NCBI GenBank assembly: GCA_947488085.1
Contig: CANKYI010000001.1
Coordinates: 2,613,928-2,677,927 of the forward strand
Length of the DNA stretch: 64,000 bases
DNA from: an uncultured Erythrobacter sp.
GTDB lineage: Bacteria; Pseudomonadota; Alphaproteobacteria; Sphingomonadales; Sphingomonadaceae
Direction of reading: 5' to 3'
The notes under the pieces were generated by a model that made no database searches, was not told the origin of the DNA, and was given only the letters and a program-made list of their open reading frames with translations. Shown here in pieces: positions 18,350-37,390 of the stretch. Numbering within the stretch: the stretch's first letter is position 1; every line of letters begins with the position of its first letter. The position numbers and the translations under genes are program-made.

Positions 18350-18753
18350 GCATGCAGGATCTGCTGGCGGCTAAAACAGCGCTGGCAAAGAAATACGGCT
18401 CCACAGGCGATGGAATCGAACGGCACATCTTCCTTTGCGGTATGTCGGATAAGCAGAAATGCTGTTCGCGCGTCGAGGGAGAGATTGCGTGGCAGCACCT
18501 CAAAGACACTTTGAAAAACCGCGGTTTAGTCGGGCCTCAACGGACACAGAACCATCCGCGCGGCCCCGGCGGCGGAATACAGCGGACCAAAGCGGATTGT
18601 TTGCAGATCTGCTCTGCCGGGCCGGTTGCCGTCGTATGGCCCGAAGGCGTCTGGTATCATTCATGCAGCCCGCAAGTGCTGGATCGGATCATCGATGAAC
18701 ATTTGATCGGCGGCAATCCGGTTGAGGAATTTCGCCTAACGCCGCCTGCTTAA
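18346..18753 (+). CDS. thioredoxin-like [2Fe-2S] ferredoxin
   Basis: A 135-residue protein of the thioredoxin-like 2Fe-2S ferredoxin family (related to the NuoE fold). The likely cluster ligands are the cysteines in [14 protein letters not shown] and [20 protein letters not shown]; the V-A-V-V-W-P-E-G stretch is typical. It is cytoplasmic and probably an electron carrier. The start codon overlaps the S9 peptidase stop (ATGA), giving translational coupling with a gene of no obvious redox link. A second ATG two codons in is possible. The redox partner is unknown. Confidence 0.88.
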
Positions 18754-18763
18754 TGACAGTCGC

Positions 18764-21650: not shown

Positions 21651-21820
21651 ATGTTCTAGCTATTCGTGCGGTGAACAAGCCCAGACGCAGGTGGGACCAA
21701 GTGCGATTTCTCGCAGCTTAGAGGGTGATCCAATGAACCTGCCGGCTGCCCCCCGTCTGCGTGCCAAGTCAGGCGGCCGAAATGCCGCTCGCAAAGCCTG
21801 CGCGTTTGGAAGTTGAAGGG

Positions 21821-21848
21821 CAAATAGTCTCGAATGAAACCAGGTCAA
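21821..21848 (-). promoter_or_regulatory. candidate promoter for the cell-wall hydrolase gene
   Basis: On the minus strand TTGACC (21848-21843) and TATTTG (21826-21821) are separated by 16 nt. It gives a leader of about 165 nt before the ATG at 21650; no known structure is recognised in that leader. Confidence 0.4.
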
Positions 21849-21849
21849 G

Positions 21850-22185
21850 TTAACGCGGCAAAAGTTCGATGAAGCGTTCTGGATTGTCGATATCCACCTC
21901 CAAAACCCAGATATCGGGATCTTGGGAACGGCGTCGCTCAATGTACTCTGAAAATTCATAAGGTTTTTCAGTGTCTTGACATTTTGTCGCAACGAAAGAA
22001 CGCGTTCCATCCATTTGGGGCATTCTTTCGTAAAGTTTCGCATCCTCACCGCGACACATACTGACGATTAAGATTGTTCCAGCATCCCGCTCCCCCTTAG
22101 CGAGCACCATGGCGCTGCCCCCATTCGATTCGCAGAGGCGGATCAGACTAGCAATCTCAAGGTGAGCAGGGAGCCTCGTCGTCAT
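21850..22185 (-). CDS. DUF1491 family protein
   Basis: A 111-residue cytoplasmic protein typical of alphaproteobacteria and of unknown function. It starts MTTRLPAHLEIASLIR and has the family's GGSAMVLAKGERDAGTIL strand-turn-strand block and a conserved C-terminal VLEVDIDNPERFIELL. The ATG at 22185 lies 10 nt after the thioesterase stop, so the gene is probably the last of the ptsN-thioesterase-DUF1491 run. The open frame extends upstream to 22275 but only within the previous gene. Confidence 0.85.
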   Translation of the reverse strand: MTTRLPAHLEIASLIRLCESNGGSAMVLAKGERDAGTILIVSMCRGEDAKLYERMPQMDGTRSFVATKCQDTEKPYEFSEYIERRRSQDPDIWVLEVDIDNPERFIELLPR

Positions 22186-22195
22186 TATCAGGGGA

Positions 22196-26086: not shown

Positions 26087-26679
26087 GAACGCAACACAGA
26101 ATGCTCTCGCAACGCACCAAGCACCGGAATTAGCGGCATTCCTAAGACTGTGAACTGATCGCCTTCGATCCGCTCAAACAATTGCACACCCATCGCCTCT
26201 ATCCGGAAACACCCGACCGTATAGCCAATCTCAGGCCACTCACTCTCCAGATAATGCTCAATGAAATCTTCGGACAGTTCGCGAACCGAGAGCTTCGCGC
26301 AGTCTGTATGACTCCATTCGCAGGCATTCCCGCGGACCAAAGCCGCCGCGCTGTGCAATTCGATCACCTTGCCGGAGAAATAGTGCAGATGGTCGGCCGC
26401 ATCTTCGCGCGATTTCGGCTTATTAAACCGCTTACCCTCAACCACGACCAGAGAGTCGCTGCCCAAGACCAACGCCTCTGCATTGGTCGCCGCAATCTCC
26501 GCCGCCTTAGCAATACTCAACGCTTCGGCGATTTCGGCGAAAGTCGCGCCGCGCAAGTTTTCCTCGATAGCGCGCTCATCAATATCAGCAGGCACGGCGT
26601 CATAGGTAACGCCAGCCGCATCGAGCATTGCCCGACGTGATGCGGATTTTGAGGCAAGGATAAGATGAGGCGAACTCAT
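26083..26679 (-). CDS. maf: Maf-type nucleotide pyrophosphatase
   Basis: Maf/HAM1-like house-cleaning enzyme that hydrolyses non-canonical or canonical nucleoside triphosphates. The 198-residue protein carries the family start LILASKSASRRAMLDAAG, the pocket acid region VLGSDSLVVVEG, the K-P in NKPKSREDAADHL and the C-terminal YTVGCFRIEAMG. The protein overlaps aroE by 4 nt and its own start overlaps the ppsR stop by 4 nt. Confidence 0.95.
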   Translation of the reverse strand: MSSPHLILASKSASRRAMLDAAGVTYDAVPADIDERAIEENLRGATFAEIAEALSIAKAAEIAATNAEALVLGSDSLVVVEGKRFNKPKSREDAADHLHYFSGKVIELHSAAALVRGNACEWSHTDCAKLSVRELSEDFIEHYLESEWPEIGYTVGCFRIEAMGVQLFERIEGDQFTVLGMPLIPVLGALREHSVLRS

Positions 26680-27521
26680 ATGGGTTTCCCCACACCATCA
26701 ACGGGTCTGTCGCGTCTCTGGCGTTCCTGCACAAGCCGAATAATTGCCGCCGCGCTTTCCTCAATGGATCGGCGAGTGACATCGATCACGGGCCAGCCAT
26801 TGTCAGAGAACATGCGCCGAGCGAATTGGATCTCCGACCGGACCCGTTCATTGTCGACATAAGACGTCTCAGTACCCTCATTTAGCGACAACAACCGATT
26901 GCGCCTGATTTGAACCAACCGCTCTGGCGCGGTGGTCAAGCCGACGACCATCGGATGACGCAGGCCGAACAAAGCCTTGGGCGGAGGACTTTCCACCACC
27001 AGGGGGATATTGGCGACTTTGTACCCGCGATTGGCGAGATAGATGCTTGTGGGCGTCTTTGAGCTGCGCGAGACACCGGCCAGCACAATGTCAGCTTCCT
27101 CCCAATCCTCATGCGCGATGCCATCATCATGGGCTATCGTGTATTGGATCGCATCAACCCGCTTGAAATAGTCGTCATCCATCAAATGCTGACGTCCGGG
27201 ACGTCCATGCGCCTCCTGACCCAATTGCGCCTCAAGCGCCGCGGTCACCTGATCAAGCACGGGCACTGCGGGCAGGCCGAGATGGCGACAATGCTCCTCT
27301 AACCGCGCGCGTGTATCCGGGTTTACCAGCGTAAACAGCACGAGACCCGGATTGTCGGCAAGATCAGGTACGATACGGTCCAAATGCTGGCGCGAACGGA
27401 CCATAGGCCAGAAATGGCGGCTAATATCTGCATCATCGAACTGAGCCAGAGCCGCCTTCGCTATCATTTCCAGCGTTTCACCCGTGGAATCGGATACGAG
27501 ATGCAAATTGAGGCGTTTCAT
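26676..27521 (-). CDS. ppsR: pyruvate/PEP dikinase regulatory kinase-phosphotransferase (PPSR/PDRP)
   Basis: A 281-residue DUF299 protein that switches phosphoenolpyruvate synthase or pyruvate phosphate dikinase on and off by ADP-dependent phosphorylation and phosphorolysis of its regulatory residues. The signature LHLVSDSTGETLEM starts at residue 4 and the P-loop ADIVLAGVSRSSKTPTS lies in the middle, followed by a HPMVVGLTTAP block. The ATG at 27521 (MKRLNLHLVS) is the family start; the frame stays open to 27575. It is the first gene on the minus side of the putative origin. Confidence 0.94.
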   Translation of the reverse strand: MKRLNLHLVSDSTGETLEMIAKAALAQFDDADISRHFWPMVRSRQHLDRIVPDLADNPGLVLFTLVNPDTRARLEEHCRHLGLPAVPVLDQVTAALEAQLGQEAHGRPGRQHLMDDDYFKRVDAIQYTIAHDDGIAHEDWEEADIVLAGVSRSSKTPTSIYLANRGYKVANIPLVVESPPPKALFGLRHPMVVGLTTAPERLVQIRRNRLLSLNEGTETSYVDNERVRSEIQFARRMFSDNGWPVIDVTRRSIEESAAAIIRLVQERQRRDRPVDGVGKPI

Positions 27522-27850
27522 AGGGCGATTCGTCGGCGCTCTTGCGGCTTGTGGACAGTCACGGGCATAAACCACGGGAGAGAACGGTCGACAAGCATGG
27601 GAGGAAAAACCATGCCCGAAATCAGCTTTTTCGTGAGACCATTTTTCTACACGGGATGAGCGATGTCGACAGGCTGGGGAGAGTGGGGATAGATCGCGCT
27701 TGACTAGGGATTAGTGCGGATTCGCGAGGTCGTGAAATCCCCTAAGTAGTCTTACAAAACGGGCAACAGCCGGTAATTCCCGCTTTCCACAGGGCCAACA
27801 GACTCCATCAATCCTTTTAAATATCTATTATATTTGTTTAGAGGGACGTT
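27522..27850. other. candidate chromosomal replication origin (hemE-linked oriC)
   Basis: A 329-bp gap between divergent ppsR and hemE, the longest in the window. Its right end (27814-27841) is strongly AT-rich, TTTTAAATATCTATTATATT, unlike the surroundings, and could be the unwinding element, the hemE promoter, or both. DnaA-box-like 9-mers with 7/9 matches lie at 27550-27558 (TGTGGACAG), 27684-27692 (TGGGGATAG) and 27783-27791 (CTTTCCACA); none is perfect. TTAA-N7-TTAT at 27817-27831 is one base from a CtrA box. Gene orientation switches here on both sides. Caulobacter oriC lies in the same place next to hemE. Confidence 0.55.
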
Positions 27851-28867
27851 ATGCCCGGTCCTTTGCTCGAAACCTTGAATGGTCAAATCCACGATATCGC
27901 TCCTGTCTGGCTCATGCGTCAGGCCGGTCGATACCTACCCGAATATCGCGAATTGCGCGCTGAAAAAGGCGGCTTTCTAGAGCTTGTCTATGATAGCGAG
28001 GCTGCTACTGAGGTTACAGTGCAGCCTATCAGGCGGTTCGGTTTTGATGGGGCTATTCTGTTCTCTGATATCTTGATCGTACCGCATGCCATGGGTCAGG
28101 GGCTTGCCTTTATGGCTGGCGAGGGGCCGAAGCTCAGTCCCACTCTGCTCGAAGCGAAGCTCGACGATTTCACGAGTGCGCATGAACGGTTTGACCCGGT
28201 CTATGAGACTGTTCGACGCACACGAGTACAGATCAGCGACGATGTGACCATGCTTGGCTTTGCGGGCTCTCCATGGACGGTTGCGACTTATATGATTGCC
28301 GGCGAAGGATCGAAGGATCAAGGACCAGCACGATTGCTGGCTTATCGCGATCCTGCTCGGCTTGAGGCGATTTGCGAAGCGATCATCACGGTCACAATCG
28401 AATATCTGCGCGGTCAGATCGATGCGGGAGCTGAGGCGATCCAATTGTTTGACAGTTGGGCTGGCAGTCTGGCTCCGGATGAGTTTGAGCGCTGGGTTAT
28501 TGCGCCTAATGCGAAAATCACCGCGGCAATCAAGCAATCGCATCCTGATGTGCCTGTAATAGGCTTTCCGAAGGGGGCAGGGGCTAAACTTCCTGCTTAT
28601 GCGCGTGAGACGGGTGTGGATGCGGTTGGCCTTGATGAATCGCTTGACCCTGCATGGGCGAATTCGGTCCTCCCCGAAGGTATGCCGGTCCAAGGCAATC
28701 TTGACCCGCTCTTGGTCGAAGCAGGCGGTCCTGCTCTGCCTGTGCGCGTAAAGGAAGTTCTGGAGGCGTTTGAAGGGCGTCCTCATGTCTTCAACCTTGG
28801 TCACGGTATCGGCCAATTTACACCGATCGAACATGTCGAGCAGCTTCTCAAAGCTGTAAGGGGTTAG
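27851..28867 (+). CDS. hemE: uroporphyrinogen III decarboxylase
   Basis: Haem biosynthesis enzyme that removes four acetate carboxyls from uroporphyrinogen III to give coproporphyrinogen III. The 338-residue protein has the N-terminal signature PVWLMRQAGRYLPEYR (with the catalytic arginines), FGFDGAILFSDILIVPHAMG, GFAGSPWTVATYM and the C-terminal FNLGHGIGQFTP. GAGGGA lies just before the ATG. It is followed 4 nt later by hemJ. Its upstream gap is the candidate origin, as in Caulobacter. Confidence 0.97.
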   Translation: MPGPLLETLNGQIHDIAPVWLMRQAGRYLPEYRELRAEKGGFLELVYDSEAATEVTVQPIRRFGFDGAILFSDILIVPHAMGQGLAFMAGEGPKLSPTLLEAKLDDFTSAHERFDPVYETVRRTRVQISDDVTMLGFAGSPWTVATYMIAGEGSKDQGPARLLAYRDPARLEAICEAIITVTIEYLRGQIDAGAEAIQLFDSWAGSLAPDEFERWVIAPNAKITAAIKQSHPDVPVIGFPKGAGAKLPAYARETGVDAVGLDESLDPAWANSVLPEGMPVQGNLDPLLVEAGGPALPVRVKEVLEAFEGRPHVFNLGHGIGQFTPIEHVEQLLKAVRG

Positions 28868-30842: not shown

Positions 30843-31253
30843 CTAAGCTTTCTGGCGCTCCAACTGGGCGCCCATCATTTCCCACACCTTATTCACCGCC
30901 TTCAATGGGCGGATCATCACTTTGAAATCGGTGATCAGGCCGGCATCGTCAAAAGTGATGATATCGACCCCGTTGACGTGAATACCATCCATTTGGGTTT
31001 CAAATTCGAGCACGATTGTATCGCCGCTTAAAACTTCGCGCAGATAGCGGAAATTGCCGTTGCCCAGAGTCTCTCCTGCAGCAGATAGGTAAGCGATCAC
31101 GATCGGTTTGCCTTCTTGCGGAGTGTGGACGACGGGGGAGTGAAAAACTGCATCCTCGTGCAATATCCCACTCAGATCCTCGGCAGTTTGGCCCTTTGAG
31201 ACCACTGTGTGCCATTTTTCGAGGCACTCTTCGATTGAAACGGTGTTTGCCAT
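30843..31253 (-). CDS. NTF2-like (SnoaL-type) family protein
   Basis: A 136-residue single-domain protein with the cone-shaped NTF2-like fold pattern: an N-terminal helix pair (ECLEKWHTVVSKG, DLSGILHEDAVFHSP) followed by strands with VLEFETQMDGIHVNGVDIITFDDAGLITDFKVMIRP. The family includes isomerases, hydrolases and binding proteins, so no reaction can be assigned. It stands alone, convergent with rho, and divergent from the next small gene. Confidence 0.82.
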   Translation of the reverse strand: MANTVSIEECLEKWHTVVSKGQTAEDLSGILHEDAVFHSPVVHTPQEGKPIVIAYLSAAGETLGNGNFRYLREVLSGDTIVLEFETQMDGIHVNGVDIITFDDAGLITDFKVMIRPLKAVNKVWEMMGAQLERQKA

Positions 31254-31709: not shown

Positions 31710-32996
31710 ATGGGTGCGGAAAACGCCACAATTTTTGCGGTGTCGAGCGGCTCGCCTCCTGCAGCAATTGCTGTGATTCGGATCAGCGGACCGCGGGCCG
31801 GCGACGCCTTGGTGTCGCTTATAGGCAAACCGATAGCGCCGCGAAGAGCCAGCCTAGCGAAGTTGCATGATGCGTCGGGCAATCTGCTTGATGAAGCGCT
31901 CGTCTTGTGGTTTCCCGGCCCTCAGTCTGCGACAGGCGAAGACTGTGCTGAATTGCAGTGCCATGGGGGCAGGGCAGTCCTTGCAGCGGTTTCCTTGGCG
32001 CTGGGCGCGATCGAAGGGTTGAGACCAGCGCAGGAAGGGGAGTTCACCCGCCGGGCCTTCGCCAATGGACGGCTTGATCTTGCTGAAGCTGAGGCGCTGG
32101 CCGATCTTCTTGAGGCTGAGACAGAATTGCAGCGCGCAGCTGCGGTCGCGAATGCCAGCGGCTCTTTATCATCTAAGGTAGAGGCTTGGCGCGAGAGGGT
32201 CTTGATGCTTTCTGCCCAAATCGAAGCGGCGCTGGATTTCTCTGACGAGGACGATGTGAGCGAGATACCAGATGGTTTCACGTGGAACATCGGTGAATTG
32301 TCCCGGGAACTGGCAGCGCTGCTGGACCAGCCTAGATCAGAGAAGTTGAAGGAGGGATTCCGTGTCGTGTTGGCTGGGCCTCCCAATTCAGGGAAATCGA
32401 CTCTCTTCAACGCTTTGGTCGAGAGTGAAGCGGCCATCACTTCGGCGATTGCGGGGACCACGCGCGATCTTATTGAGCGTTCAGTTGGTATTGGGGGAGT
32501 TCCGTTCTCATTCGTCGACACCGCTGGCCTGCGCGATGAGGCGGCGGAAGAGATCGAAGAGATCGGCATAGAGAGGGCTAGGGCTGAATTCGCAAAGGCT
32601 GACGTGGTTTTGTGGCTTGGACCTCAAGCGACAGGACCAGCGGGTAGTTGGGAAGTAGCAGCGCGACTTGATGCGAGCGATTTTGTTGCAAAGACTGCTC
32701 CCGTATTCTCGGTCTCCGCTGTTTCTGGTGAAGGTCTGGCGGCCCTGAAGGAAGCTCTGATCGAAGCGGCGCGCACCGCCTTGCCAAAACCGGGAGAGGC
32801 GGCACTCAATGCGCGGCAATTCGCCAGGTTGGGTGAGGCGAGAGATGGCTTACAAGGCGCCGGTTCACACACTGACTTGCTGCTTATTGCCGAGGAGTTG
32901 AGACAGGCTCGTGTGGCTTTTGATAGGTTGATTGGGTGTGCGACCACCGAAGATATGCTCGACGCACTGTTTGGTCGGTTCTGTATCGGGAAATAG
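31710..32996 (+). CDS. mnmE: tRNA U34 modification GTPase MnmE
   Basis: With MnmG it installs the carboxymethylaminomethyl group on wobble uridine 34. The 428-residue protein has the N-terminal folate-binding domain (IFAVSSGSPPAAIAVIRISGP), GEFTRRAFANGRLDLAEAEA, the G domain with GPPNSGKSTLFNAL, the switch region ITSAIAGTTRDL and DTAGL, and the catalytic C-terminal FCIGK. ATG 31710 is chosen; a GTG at 31686 would add eight residues. A parS-like site is embedded in the coding sequence at 32274. Confidence 0.97.
   Translation: MGAENATIFAVSSGSPPAAIAVIRISGPRAGDALVSLIGKPIAPRRASLAKLHDASGNLLDEALVLWFPGPQSATGEDCAELQCHGGRAVLAAVSLALGAIEGLRPAQEGEFTRRAFANGRLDLAEAEALADLLEAETELQRAAAVANASGSLSSKVEAWRERVLMLSAQIEAALDFSDEDDVSEIPDGFTWNIGELSRELAALLDQPRSEKLKEGFRVVLAGPPNSGKSTLFNALVESEAAITSAIAGTTRDLIERSVGIGGVPFSFVDTAGLRDEAAEEIEEIGIERARAEFAKADVVLWLGPQATGPAGSWEVAARLDASDFVAKTAPVFSVSAVSGEGLAALKEALIEAARTALPKPGEAALNARQFARLGEARDGLQGAGSHTDLLLIAEELRQARVAFDRLIGCATTEDMLDALFGRFCIGK
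32274..32289. other. parS-like site 1 (inside mnmE)
   Basis: GGTTTCACGTGGAACA matches the bacterial parS consensus TGTTTCACGTGAAACA at 14 of 16 positions, and the core TTTCACGTG is intact. It lies within the mnmE coding sequence, near the codons for FTWN. Confidence 0.7.
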
Positions 32997-33020: not shown

Positions 33021-33036
33021 TGTTTCACGTGAAACA
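33021..33036. other. parS site 2 (mnmE-mnmG gap)
   Basis: TGTTTCACGTGAAACA is an exact match to the universal parS palindrome bound by ParB. It sits in the 79-nt gap between mnmE and mnmG, 2.6 kb before parA and 5.2 kb from the candidate origin. Confidence 0.93.
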
Positions 33037-34929: not shown

Positions 34930-35555
34930 GTGAACGGCGCATGCTTGCTGATGAGAATGAGGCTCGCTCCTATGTTGAGAAGGTGTGTGCGGATCCTCAG
35001 GCATGGGATCGGATTGGGTTGTTCGCCCAACTGTTGTTGGCCGAGAATCAGAAGCAGAACCTAATCAGCAAGGCCTCTGAGGAGAATTTATGGGTTCGCC
35101 ATCTCGCAGATGGTGCGCAATTGCTCGAGTATGCTTCACGTGAAACATCTGGCCCTTGGTTGGATCTCGGCAGCGGCCCGGGCCTACCTGGGTTGGTGAT
35201 CTCGATTCTCCGTCCCGAAATTGAGTGCGTTTTGGTCGAATCCCGAGGTCGACGTGTCGATTTTCTAGAGCACTGCGTGTCAGAACTGGGCCTCGACAAT
35301 TGTCGCATTGAGGGGCGTCGTTTGGAGCAGGTTGCCCCGTTCGAAGCTGCTGTGATTTCCGCAAGAGCCTTCGCTCCATTGGAAAAGCTCCTCCGTTTAT
35401 CCGCACCGTTCTCCACAAAGACGACGCGCTTCATCTTGCCCAAAGGCCGTTCAGCAGCGCACGAACTAAAACAGATGAAATTTTCGATTCGGAAGATGTT
35501 TCACGTGGAACAATCATTGACCGACCCCGATGCAGGCATCATCGTGAGTGCTTGA
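34926..35555 (+). CDS. rsmG: 16S rRNA m7G527 methyltransferase RsmG (GidB)
   Basis: SAM-dependent methyltransferase for G527 of 16S rRNA. The 209-residue protein has [13 protein letters not shown], the SAM loop [28 protein letters not shown] and [13 protein letters not shown]. The ATG at 34926 overlaps the mnmG stop. Two parS-like sites lie inside it: one near residue 70 and one at the C-terminal MFHVEQ codons, a common place for parS in alphaproteobacterial rsmG. Confidence 0.97.
35132..35147. other. parS-like site 3 (inside rsmG)
   Basis: TGCTTCACGTGAAACA matches the parS consensus at 15 of 16 bases. It lies in the middle of rsmG, spanning the codons for ASRET. Confidence 0.85.
35497..35512. 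other. parS-like site 4 (3' end of rsmG)
   Basis: TGTTTCACGTGGAACA matches the parS consensus at 15 of 16 bases. It encodes MFHVEQ near the C terminus of RsmG and lies 110 nt upstream of the parA start. Confidence 0.85.
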
Positions 35556-35621
35556 CGCTCCGATGTGCTTGGAAATTGCGAATTGGCGCCGTTCCGACGG
35601 GCCTCAGTAAGGAAAAGAGCG

Positions 35622-36398
35622 ATGTTGACCATTGCCATTGCGAACCAAAAGGGTGGGGTGGGTAAGACCACCACGGCCATCAACATGGCAACTGCCATGG
35701 CCGCGACGGGTTGGCGCACCTTGCTCATCGATCTCGACCCCCAGGGAAATGCATCCACTGGCATGGGCATCAGCTCTGATGCGCGTGAGGTGTCGAGCTA
35801 TGATCTGTTGGTGGACGAAGTACCACTGGGTGAGGCGACGCTTGAAACCGACATTCCTCGACTGGATATCGTCCCTGCAACCGTGGACCTTAGCGGCGCT
35901 GAAATAGAGCTCGTTTCGGTTGATGGGCGCACAGATCGGTTGCGCAATGCTCTGGCTGATCATGATGGCCATGAGATTTGCTTCATTGACTGCCCACCAT
36001 CGCTCGGTCTCCTTACGCTCAATGCGTTGTGCGCAGCAGATACGTTGTTGGTGCCGTTGCAATGCGAATTCTTCGCGCTTGAGGGCCTGAGTCAGCTTTT
36101 GCAGACTGTGGAGCGCATTCAGCAGCGCTTTAATCCGAAACTCGATATCATCGGCGTTGCTTTGACGATGTATGATCGCCGCAATCGCCTCACCGACCAA
36201 GTGGCCGATGATGTTCGTGATTGTCTTGGCAAATTGGTGTTCGACACAGTCATCCCGCGCAATGTTCGACTGTCTGAAGCGCCCAGTCATGGGATGCCGG
36301 CACTGATTTATGACAACAATTGCGTGGGCAGCCGGGCCTATATGGCGTTGGCACGTGAATTGATCGGACGATTTCCCCCAACGAGGCAAGCAGCATGA
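35622..36398 (+). CDS. parA: chromosome-partitioning ATPase ParA
   Basis: Walker-type ATPase that binds DNA non-specifically and moves ParB-parS complexes to the new pole. The 258-residue protein has the deviant Walker A NQKGGVGKTTTAIN at residue 8, LLIDLDPQGNAST, and the Walker B/motif FIDCPPSLGLLTLNAL. ATG 35622 (MLTIAIANQKGG) has AAGGA upstream and is the family start; the frame is open further back to 35565. It overlaps parB by 4 nt. Chromosomal type, without an N-terminal HTH. Confidence 0.97.
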   Translation: MLTIAIANQKGGVGKTTTAINMATAMAATGWRTLLIDLDPQGNASTGMGISSDAREVSSYDLLVDEVPLGEATLETDIPRLDIVPATVDLSGAEIELVSVDGRTDRLRNALADHDGHEICFIDCPPSLGLLTLNALCAADTLLVPLQCEFFALEGLSQLLQTVERIQQRFNPKLDIIGVALTMYDRRNRLTDQVADDVRDCLGKLVFDTVIPRNVRLSEAPSHGMPALIYDNNCVGSRAYMALARELIGRFPPTRQAA

Positions 36399-37390
36399 GT
36401 AAGAACTCCTCACATACCACAGAAGTGTCGACATCACCGCGCAGCAGTGCGGCAGGGCGCAAGAAGAAGCTTGGTAAAGGCCTTGGTGCACTTTTGGGTG
36501 AGACTAAGCGGGAAGAGCCACTTGTTCGATCCGCAGAAGAAGCTGAAAGTGGACTGGATACGGGCACGGGTGCGGCAACTGCGTCTGATTCTGCGCTGAA
36601 ATCGCTAGCTATATCTTCGATCGAACCGCTTCCAGGTAACCCTCGCAAGCACTTCGACGAAGGGGCGTTGGATGAATTGGCTGCGTCGATCGCCACGCGT
36701 GGTGTGATTCAGCCCATTATCGTGCGTCCAAAAGGGGGTGGGCGATATCAGCTCGTTGCCGGTGAGCGACGCTGGCGTGCCGCGCAGAAAGCGCAATTGC
36801 ATCAGATCCCCGCATTGGTCCGCGATCTGGATGAGCGCGAGGTGATGGCGCTAGCGTTGATTGAGAACCTTCAACGCGAAGATCTCAATCCCGTAGAAGA
36901 AGCGCGCGCCTATCAGCGATTGTCCGATCAAGAAGGTATGACGCAGGCTGAGATTGCGCGCATGGTCGAGAAATCACGCAGCCACATTGCGAATATTCAG
37001 CGGCTCTTGGGCTTGCCCGATGATGTATTGAACCTTGTTGAGGTCGGGAGCCTATCTATGGGGCATGCGCGAGCTCTGATTGGTCAGGACGATGCGGCCG
37101 CATTGGCCAAGAGGGCTGTGAACGATAGTCTCTCTGTCCGAGAGGTTGAAAAACTTGTGCGACAGGCGGCGAAGGCCAACCAAAATCATGCGACCTCCGG
37201 GAAAGCCTCATCAACACCTGGCGCGAACGCTGACATTGTGGCGGTCCAGCGGCACTTGGAGGAGTTTCTCGGGTTGACGGTGCGCATCAAGCCCGATGCT
37301 GACCTCAGTTCGGGTTCAATTTCAATCAGTTACAAGACGCTCGATCAACTAGACATGGTTTGCCAACGTCTAACGGGTGGCGATATTTAG
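36395..37390 (+). CDS. parB: chromosome-partitioning CTPase ParB
   Basis: CTP-dependent DNA clamp that loads at parS. The 331-residue protein has a basic N-terminal region with KKKLGKGLGALLGE (ParA-contact type), the CTP-binding motifs PRKHFDE and GERRWRAAQKA, ENLQREDLNPVEEARAY, the parS-binding HTH (TQAEIARMVEKSRSHIANIQRLL) in two parts and a C-terminal dimer domain. It overlaps parA. A 17-bp perfect inverted repeat follows its stop. Confidence 0.97.
   Translation: MSKNSSHTTEVSTSPRSSAAGRKKKLGKGLGALLGETKREEPLVRSAEEAESGLDTGTGAATASDSALKSLAISSIEPLPGNPRKHFDEGALDELAASIATRGVIQPIIVRPKGGGRYQLVAGERRWRAAQKAQLHQIPALVRDLDEREVMALALIENLQREDLNPVEEARAYQRLSDQEGMTQAEIARMVEKSRSHIANIQRLLGLPDDVLNLVEVGSLSMGHARALIGQDDAAALAKRAVNDSLSVREVEKLVRQAAKANQNHATSGKASSTPGANADIVAVQRHLEEFLGLTVRIKPDADLSSGSISISYKTLDQLDMVCQRLTGGDI

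Follow-up and report, generated by a model that had tools for sequence, protein, structure and literature searches.

Where the chromosome of an Erythrobacter-like sphingomonad starts its replication is a question raised by a 329 bp intergenic region (27522–27850) in the stretch of 64,000 nucleotides analysed here (the window, G000:C1:2613928-2677927, from an assembly of 3,421,068 bases in six contigs). A first-pass annotation had placed a candidate origin next to hemE, where the gene strand switches. A cumulative GC skew minimum, the gene address, conserved internal blocks, an AT-rich edge and adjoining parS sites and parAB genes form the computed basis for assigning this gap as oriC, and leave us with little doubt that it is the single chromosomal origin. 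The features discussed below are collected in Table 1.

Genomic location and conservation of the gap

The gap has a G+C content of 51%, compared with 57% for the window, and separates ppsR on the minus strand from hemE on the plus strand. The strand layout described in the first-pass annotation was confirmed, with genes running minus to the left of the gap and plus to the right up to position 37390, with the exception of one (30843–31253). A crude gene model of the window placed the ppsR start at an upstream GTG, and contained two gaps (18350–18763, and 21651–22195, which holds a 129 aa ORF) longer than the present one, which the first-pass annotation had called the longest intergenic stretch of the window; the ATG at 27521 matches the ppsR start in aligned relatives. 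The gene names given earlier were largely upheld, as dnaQ, coaE, aroE, maf, ppsR, hemE, rho and the ParB domain pass the curated NCBIfam cut-offs, whereas HemJ scored below its own cut-off and the ParA candidate below those of ParA-type models.

HemE searches found hemE in 41/41 near genomes and in 137/137 genomes across the order. A divergent ppsR was located beside hemE at 25/25 same-genus loci (one cut by a contig), at 15/16 loci of other families, with the sole miss at a contig end, and in 37/40 further order-wide regions of 731 bp, the three misses having no ppsR inside the fetched piece. The length of the gap was 312–347 bp in all 25 same-genus genomes, with the same flanking genes, and 62 of the 358 columns in the same-genus alignment were invariant. 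Median identity to the gap of the window was 0.63 (12 genomes), versus 0.505 for the hemJ-rho gap and 0.485 for the mnmE-mnmG gap (12 genomes each); two more neighbouring gaps, disturbed by inserts, were comparable in 4 and 8 genomes only. By these identities, the gap is better conserved than its neighbouring gaps.

GC skew and replication arms

In a contiguous 340 kb stretch of contig C1 (2,500,001–2,840,000), the cumulative GC skew reached its minimum at position 2641410, corresponding to position 27483 of the window. This is 39 bp left of the gap, and not tens of kb away, which the first-pass annotation had named as evidence against its proposal. Chromosome-wide skew was sampled over 800 kb (23% of the assembly), giving an incomplete curve. 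On C1 it was mostly positive from the origin round to ~0.93 Mb, whereas negative values predominated between 0.95 and 2.61 Mb; deviating stretches were found at 0.45 Mb, at 2.1 Mb and, as several short pieces, close to the origin. The left arm is ~1.7 Mb long, and the right arm comprises 1.35 Mb plus the chromosomal share of the five remaining contigs (0.36 Mb); the sign pattern of the sampled skew indicates that the arms are roughly equal. The terminus was placed by skew alone, since no dif site was found using an E. coli-like pattern with up to three mismatches.

In relatives (the G037 stretches were left out of this test), the G-C skew was higher to the right of hemE than to the left in 13/13, and the left skew was negative in 9/13. 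A local skew minimum within 1 kb of hemE was found in just 4/13, in stretches of 20–40 kb, which are too short. The hand count in the first-pass annotation, with C/G of 38/25 in the 120 nt on the left and 32/35 in the 120 nt on the right, was not reproduced, as a recount gave 31/29 and 36/29, respectively, with C exceeding G on both sides. The large-scale skew does support the origin, although the hand count fails.

Partition sites next to the origin

A search with the parS pattern, allowing one mismatch, gave four hits in the assembly, of which two were exact and two had one mismatch, and all were located 4.4–7.7 kb from the gap; a control pattern gave one hit. Exact parS sites were likewise located 4–9.4 kb to the right of hemE in relatives (13/13 tested), and parAB has been described as a good anchor for the origin in Sphingomonadales (PMC8116508, in excerpt). 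Two DnaA-like words with one mismatch, 12 bp apart, are located at 35397 and 35409 on the plus strand, with the parS site of 35497 following approximately 90 bp further on. With the skew minimum, the parS sites and an address conserved across Sphingomonadales, the proposal of an origin beside hemE at the strand switch stands.

Table 1. Features of the ppsR-hemE gap and its surroundings (window positions)
Feature	Position	Strand	Remarks
ppsR (DUF299/COG1806), left neighbour	26676..27521	-	NF003742, 334.7 bits, cut-off 225
Very probable oriC in the gap separating the divergent genes ppsR and hemE	27522..27850	.	Skew minimum 39 bp to the left; conserved address
DnaA-like box CTGTCCACA (7/9)	27550..27558	-	TGTGGA core nearly invariant in clade
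Conserved element GCATAAACCACGGGAG	27565..27580	+	Unlike DnaA, CtrA or IHF sites; hardly varies among 91 distinct origins
Conserved GACAAG block	27590..27595	+	
DnaA-like box TTTTCTACA (7/9)	27643..27651	+	
Conserved TGTCGACA followed by GGCTGGGGA	27664..27671	+	Possible degenerate DnaA box (putative assignment)
DnaA-like box CTATCCCCA (7/9)	27684..27692	-	
Conserved CTTGAC	27699..27704	+	Possible -35 of a promoter towards hemE (putative function)
GANTC (GATTC), CcrM-type methylation site	27719..27723	.	Same aligned position in 91/91 distinct clade origins
DUE-side DnaA-like box CTTTCCACA	27783..27791	+	TCCACA nearly invariant
GC-rich spacer GGGCC	27792..27796	+	Between box and unwinding tract
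Tract AACAGACTCCATCAATCC	27797..27814	+	Place of C-initial trinucleotide repeats in other families; DnaA-trio-like, degenerate here
Second GANTC (GACTC)	27801..27805	.	Inside tract 27797-27814; same position in 58/91
AT-rich block	27815..27841	+	Likely duplex unwinding element (DUE)
hemE, right neighbour	27851..28867	+	TIGR01464, 382.1 bits, cut-off 302.95
parS-like site	32274..32289	.	One mismatch
parS site TGTTTCACGTGAAACA	33021..33036	.	
parS-like site	35132..35147	.	One mismatch
parS site	35497..35512	.	
parA-like and parB genes	35565..37390	+	Origin-proximal partition system; TIGR00180 parB_part 185.5 bits, cut-off 58.45; ParA-type models below cut-off

A conserved element distinct from DnaA boxes

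New in this study is the conserved non-DnaA element at 27565–27580. Its word GCATAAACCACGG was found exactly once in 800 kb of the genome, and together with the adjacent box it makes up a composite hallmark with fixed spacing, consisting of TGTGGA, nine bases and then GCATAAACCACGG-N-A. Genomes of 84,980 species were scanned for exact matches, and this composite word was detected in at least 120 stretches. Among the 80 matches listed, all 80 composite words were located at ppsR and/or hemE (72 with both genes, seven with ppsR alone and one with hemE alone in the fetched DNA), and the titles of these matches named Erythrobacter, Novosphingobium, Qipengyuania, Porphyrobacter and kin, or were unresolved names. 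A looser form (CATAAACC followed by GG) was present in 10/23 other same-family regions and in 0/17 other-family regions. We know of no DnaA, CtrA or IHF consensus that the element resembles, and it is probably the binding site of an origin factor, either specific to the clade or yet to be recognised, or else an unusual contact for DnaA.

The set of clade origins used in the following comparisons combined the 25 same-genus gaps with 72 of the 80 listed loci, giving 97, of which 91 were distinct; outside this set were the eight loci with one flanking gene missing from the fetched DNA and four other-family gaps.

DnaA boxes and the unwinding region

The gap contains four words matching the DnaA box at seven of nine positions (27550 and 27684 on the minus strand, 27643 and 27783 on the plus strand), one more than the three reported in the first-pass annotation, and none of these reaches 8/9, a weakness that counts against the origin assignment. 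At a single place, the probability of four such words in 329 bp is ~0.003 (0.59 are expected). The number of boxes is poor evidence by itself, since in 800 kb of the genome three other places had five such words and 20 places, the gap included, had four, and DnaA-box density was accordingly rejected as sole proof of an origin. Better DnaA-like clusters elsewhere, which had been named as counter-evidence, thus exist in the formal sense that three places hold more 7/9 words, and as far as tested these places lack other origin marks. The positions of the boxes are conserved in the clade alignment, in which 23/91 origins have no box within one mismatch and only 5/91 have exact boxes; exact TTATCCACA boxes are present in the gap in 11/16 loci of other families of the order.

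The AT-rich block noted earlier as closing the gap was confirmed, with 86% A+T at 27814–27841, and this unwinding-type region adjoins the DnaA-like box at 27783. Arrangements similar to the DUE-side core, TCCACA-GGGCC-AACA followed by AT-rich DNA, were found in other families as well, and are thus more widespread than the clade. We also searched for DnaA-trios, requiring a minimum of three NAN trios no more than 16 bp from a box, a rule taken from PMC8287927 (in excerpt). No such run was present in this origin, where the longest run was one trio, and such runs were found in 16/91 clade origins versus 33/910 shuffled copies, with 12/91 in the reverse orientation.

The sequence from the DUE-side box to the AT-rich block was observed, in the order's other families, to be a run of C-initial triplets (CTA, CAA, CCA), whose middle base on the top strand is often A. 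This run may represent a DnaA-trio variant with a varying middle base. Runs of four or more C[ATC][ATC] in the last 165 bp, a pattern framed after seeing the sequences, were present in 10/17 other-family regions (11/170 shuffles), in 28/91 clade origins (59/910) and in just 3/13 other same-family regions (19/130), a group in which L283 was placed by the pattern used even though it has the conserved element. An NTN pattern did not discriminate (15/17 versus 135/170 shuffles). The C-initial triplet reading is a lead and not a result, as it is post hoc and weak in the other same-family regions.

GANTC sites at fixed positions

GANTC sites were present in all 91 clade origins with a mean of 4.1 (computed from the summed counts), versus 1.2 in shuffles, and were also enriched in 13 regions from elsewhere in the family (on average 4.2 versus 1.2), with no enrichment in 17 other-family regions (1.3 versus 1.5). 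The gap of the window has three, compared with a genome mean of 0.43 per 329 bp and with 1.7% of such windows having three or more. A GANTC site within 25 bp of the last WTCCACA was found in 64/89 origins versus 328/4450 shuffles (two of the 91 origins have no WTCCACA box). The genome encodes a CcrM-type methylase with a RAMA domain (69.6 bits, cut-off 35.2), and the conserved GANTC sites are likely to be methylated by this homologue. GANTC motifs have already been reported in the origin (Cori) of Caulobacter and kin (PMC3973325, in excerpt), and thus the new part here is their fixed positions, with one located inside the unwinding tract.

Divergence of DnaA

DnaA is diverged in this genus, which is a new finding: the DnaA score was 473.5–487.6 bits in 13 same-genus genomes versus 556.5–577.9 bits in four genomes from other families. 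In DnaA of the window's genome, for example, SRLGWGL is changed to SRLSMGL and ELEGALNR to ELVGGLNK, at runs that are alike in the four other-family DnaAs, and the box-reading GGRDH(T/S)TV stretch is kept. Relative to DnaA of four other families in the order, it is the AAA+ domain of the same-genus DnaA that is unusually diverged. The origin and DnaA may have diverged together.

Dispersed parS palindromes in the same genus

Exact TGTTYCACGTGRAACA palindromes were detected in 10–69 copies in 46/114 same-genus genomes, in 6–9 copies in two and in 0–5 copies in 66, without hits for the control, and in 0–4 copies in other genera of the order (131 genomes). Mapping of the copies in two genomes, G003 and G022, placed them between genes around the whole chromosome, with an additional cluster at the origin. 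All eight dispersed sites examined in G022 (55 exact copies) have 2–4 GGGTCT words within 150 bp, and 17/20 dispersed sites of G003 have at least one within 300 bp, at a background of 0.25–0.35 per kb, compared with 0/16 origin-proximal sites of both genomes within 150 bp. GGGTCT repeated every 11 bp was found in 39/114 genomes, with six or more hits in 24 genomes, all of which have at least 10 palindromes, and in G003 17/22 array places are within 100 bp of a palindrome. As no GGGTCT array is present in 16 of the genomes having 10 or more palindromes, palindromes and arrays are associated, but not bound together. An assembly scan of the window's genome detected neither GGGTCT arrays nor dispersed palindromes, and we found no description of dispersed parS in this group in the literature by title or abstract. 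These palindromes raise the question of why part of one genus has dozens of centromere-like sites off the origin, often beside phased repeats.

Alternative explanations

The gap could be no more than a long two-way promoter and leader region of ppsR and hemE, with the true origin elsewhere. The conserved CTTGAC block could indeed be a -35 sequence, and CcrM-regulated promoters reportedly also often carry GANTC sites. A promoter-only gap is difficult to reconcile with the nearby skew minimum and the adjoining parS cluster, with the DUE-like edge beside a conserved box, with clusters of exact DnaA boxes at the same address in other families, and with published origin predictions for the family (PMC4741004, in excerpt), which makes this explanation extremely improbable. 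An origin near dnaA, as is common in bacteria outside this group, would match the contigs of G021 and G022, which start 484 bp before the dnaA match, a start chosen by the depositor or a pipeline. In the window's genome dnaA maps to a different contig (C2:103673-105031), which puts it 0.41 Mb or more away from the gap if C2 is taken to follow C1, and it is ~0.44 Mb from hemE in G021 and ~0.41 Mb in G022; furthermore, the skew is still positive at both ends of C1, and dnaA is described as not conserved near the origin in Sphingomonadales in the excerpt of PMC8116508. An origin at dnaA was rejected on the grounds of skew, distance and this publication, and its probability is close to nil. In G037, hemE is no more than 500 bp from the contig end, whereas the contigs of G021 and G022 start just before dnaA, and hence deposited chromosomes differ in their start point.

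With the ppsR-hemE gap taken as the origin, its repression by CtrA as in Caulobacter has to be considered, as the near-CtrA site TTAA-N7-TTAT noted in the first-pass annotation does start at 27817, and is also present in one close relative (L023). Across relatives the site is at chance level: a CtrA site (TTAA-N7-TTAA) within one mismatch was found in 13/91 clade origins versus 98/910 locally shuffled copies. The site moreover falls in the AT-rich block, whose composition readily gives rise to such words, and loss of ctrA gave no growth defect in Sphingomonas melonis (PMC8116508, in excerpt). Control by CtrA at this origin was rejected on the basis of the site frequency, and is very improbable.

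Proposed initiation and comparison with known origins

We propose that DnaA would bind the several weak boxes cooperatively, and that the DUE-side box at 27783 and the GGGCC spacer may direct a DnaA oligomer rightward over 27797–27814 into the AT-rich block at 27815–27841, which would then melt and allow loading of the helicase. Two forks would leave, one via hemE and one via ppsR, each co-directional with the neighbouring genes, after which ParAB and the parS cluster may part the two new origins. If the GANTC sites are methylated by the CcrM homologue, as is likely, the origin would be hemimethylated after firing.

The oriC of E. coli has adenine-methylation sites (GATC) inside its unwinding region, which belong to the Dam/SeqA system. 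The origin described here is similar in having adenine-methylation sites in the unwinding region, but with GANTC/CcrM in place of GATC/Dam. A more far-reaching and doubtful possibility is that the initiation machinery of the clade has been rebuilt, with a DnaA changed at otherwise conserved AAA+ positions acting on degenerate boxes, a dedicated factor on the 16 bp element at 27565–27580, and a CcrM site in the unwinding tract that may let methylation gate opening, following a Dam/SeqA-like logic that would have evolved separately.

An oriC near hemE was predicted for most Sphingomonadaceae (PMC4741004, in excerpt), and the placement next to hemE and COG1806 has precedents in Caulobacter and Rickettsia (PMC1914354, in excerpt), and thus the gap is a correct call of an already known origin type. 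With the hemE-type oriC of Sphingopyxis granuli TFA (PMC4741004) it shares the location close to hemE, the presence of conserved boxes and a DUE lying between the genes, but the Erythrobacter/Novosphingobium clade has weaker boxes and conserved blocks of its own. As in Cori of Caulobacter crescentus (PMC1914354, in excerpt), the region lies between hemE and ppsR (COG1806) and contains an AT-rich block and DnaA boxes, as well as GANTC sites (PMC3973325). Five CtrA sites and one for IHF are described in Cori (PMC1914354), whereas here CtrA-like sites are at chance level and the best IHF match in the gap has two mismatches; IHF matches within one mismatch were found in 32/91 origins versus 59/273 shuffles, a weak difference for the consensus used. 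The order of box, GC-rich spacer, tract and AT-rich block, in the same orientation, is shared with the basal unwinding system of Bacillus subtilis (PMC8287927, in excerpt), but the three NAN trios within 16 bp of the box are absent here.

Fixing the origin for this genome makes its replication arms, gene-dosage gradient and metagenome growth-rate estimates readable. The conserved element and the GANTC sites provide precise targets for studying how this clade controls initiation of replication without evident CtrA sites at the origin.
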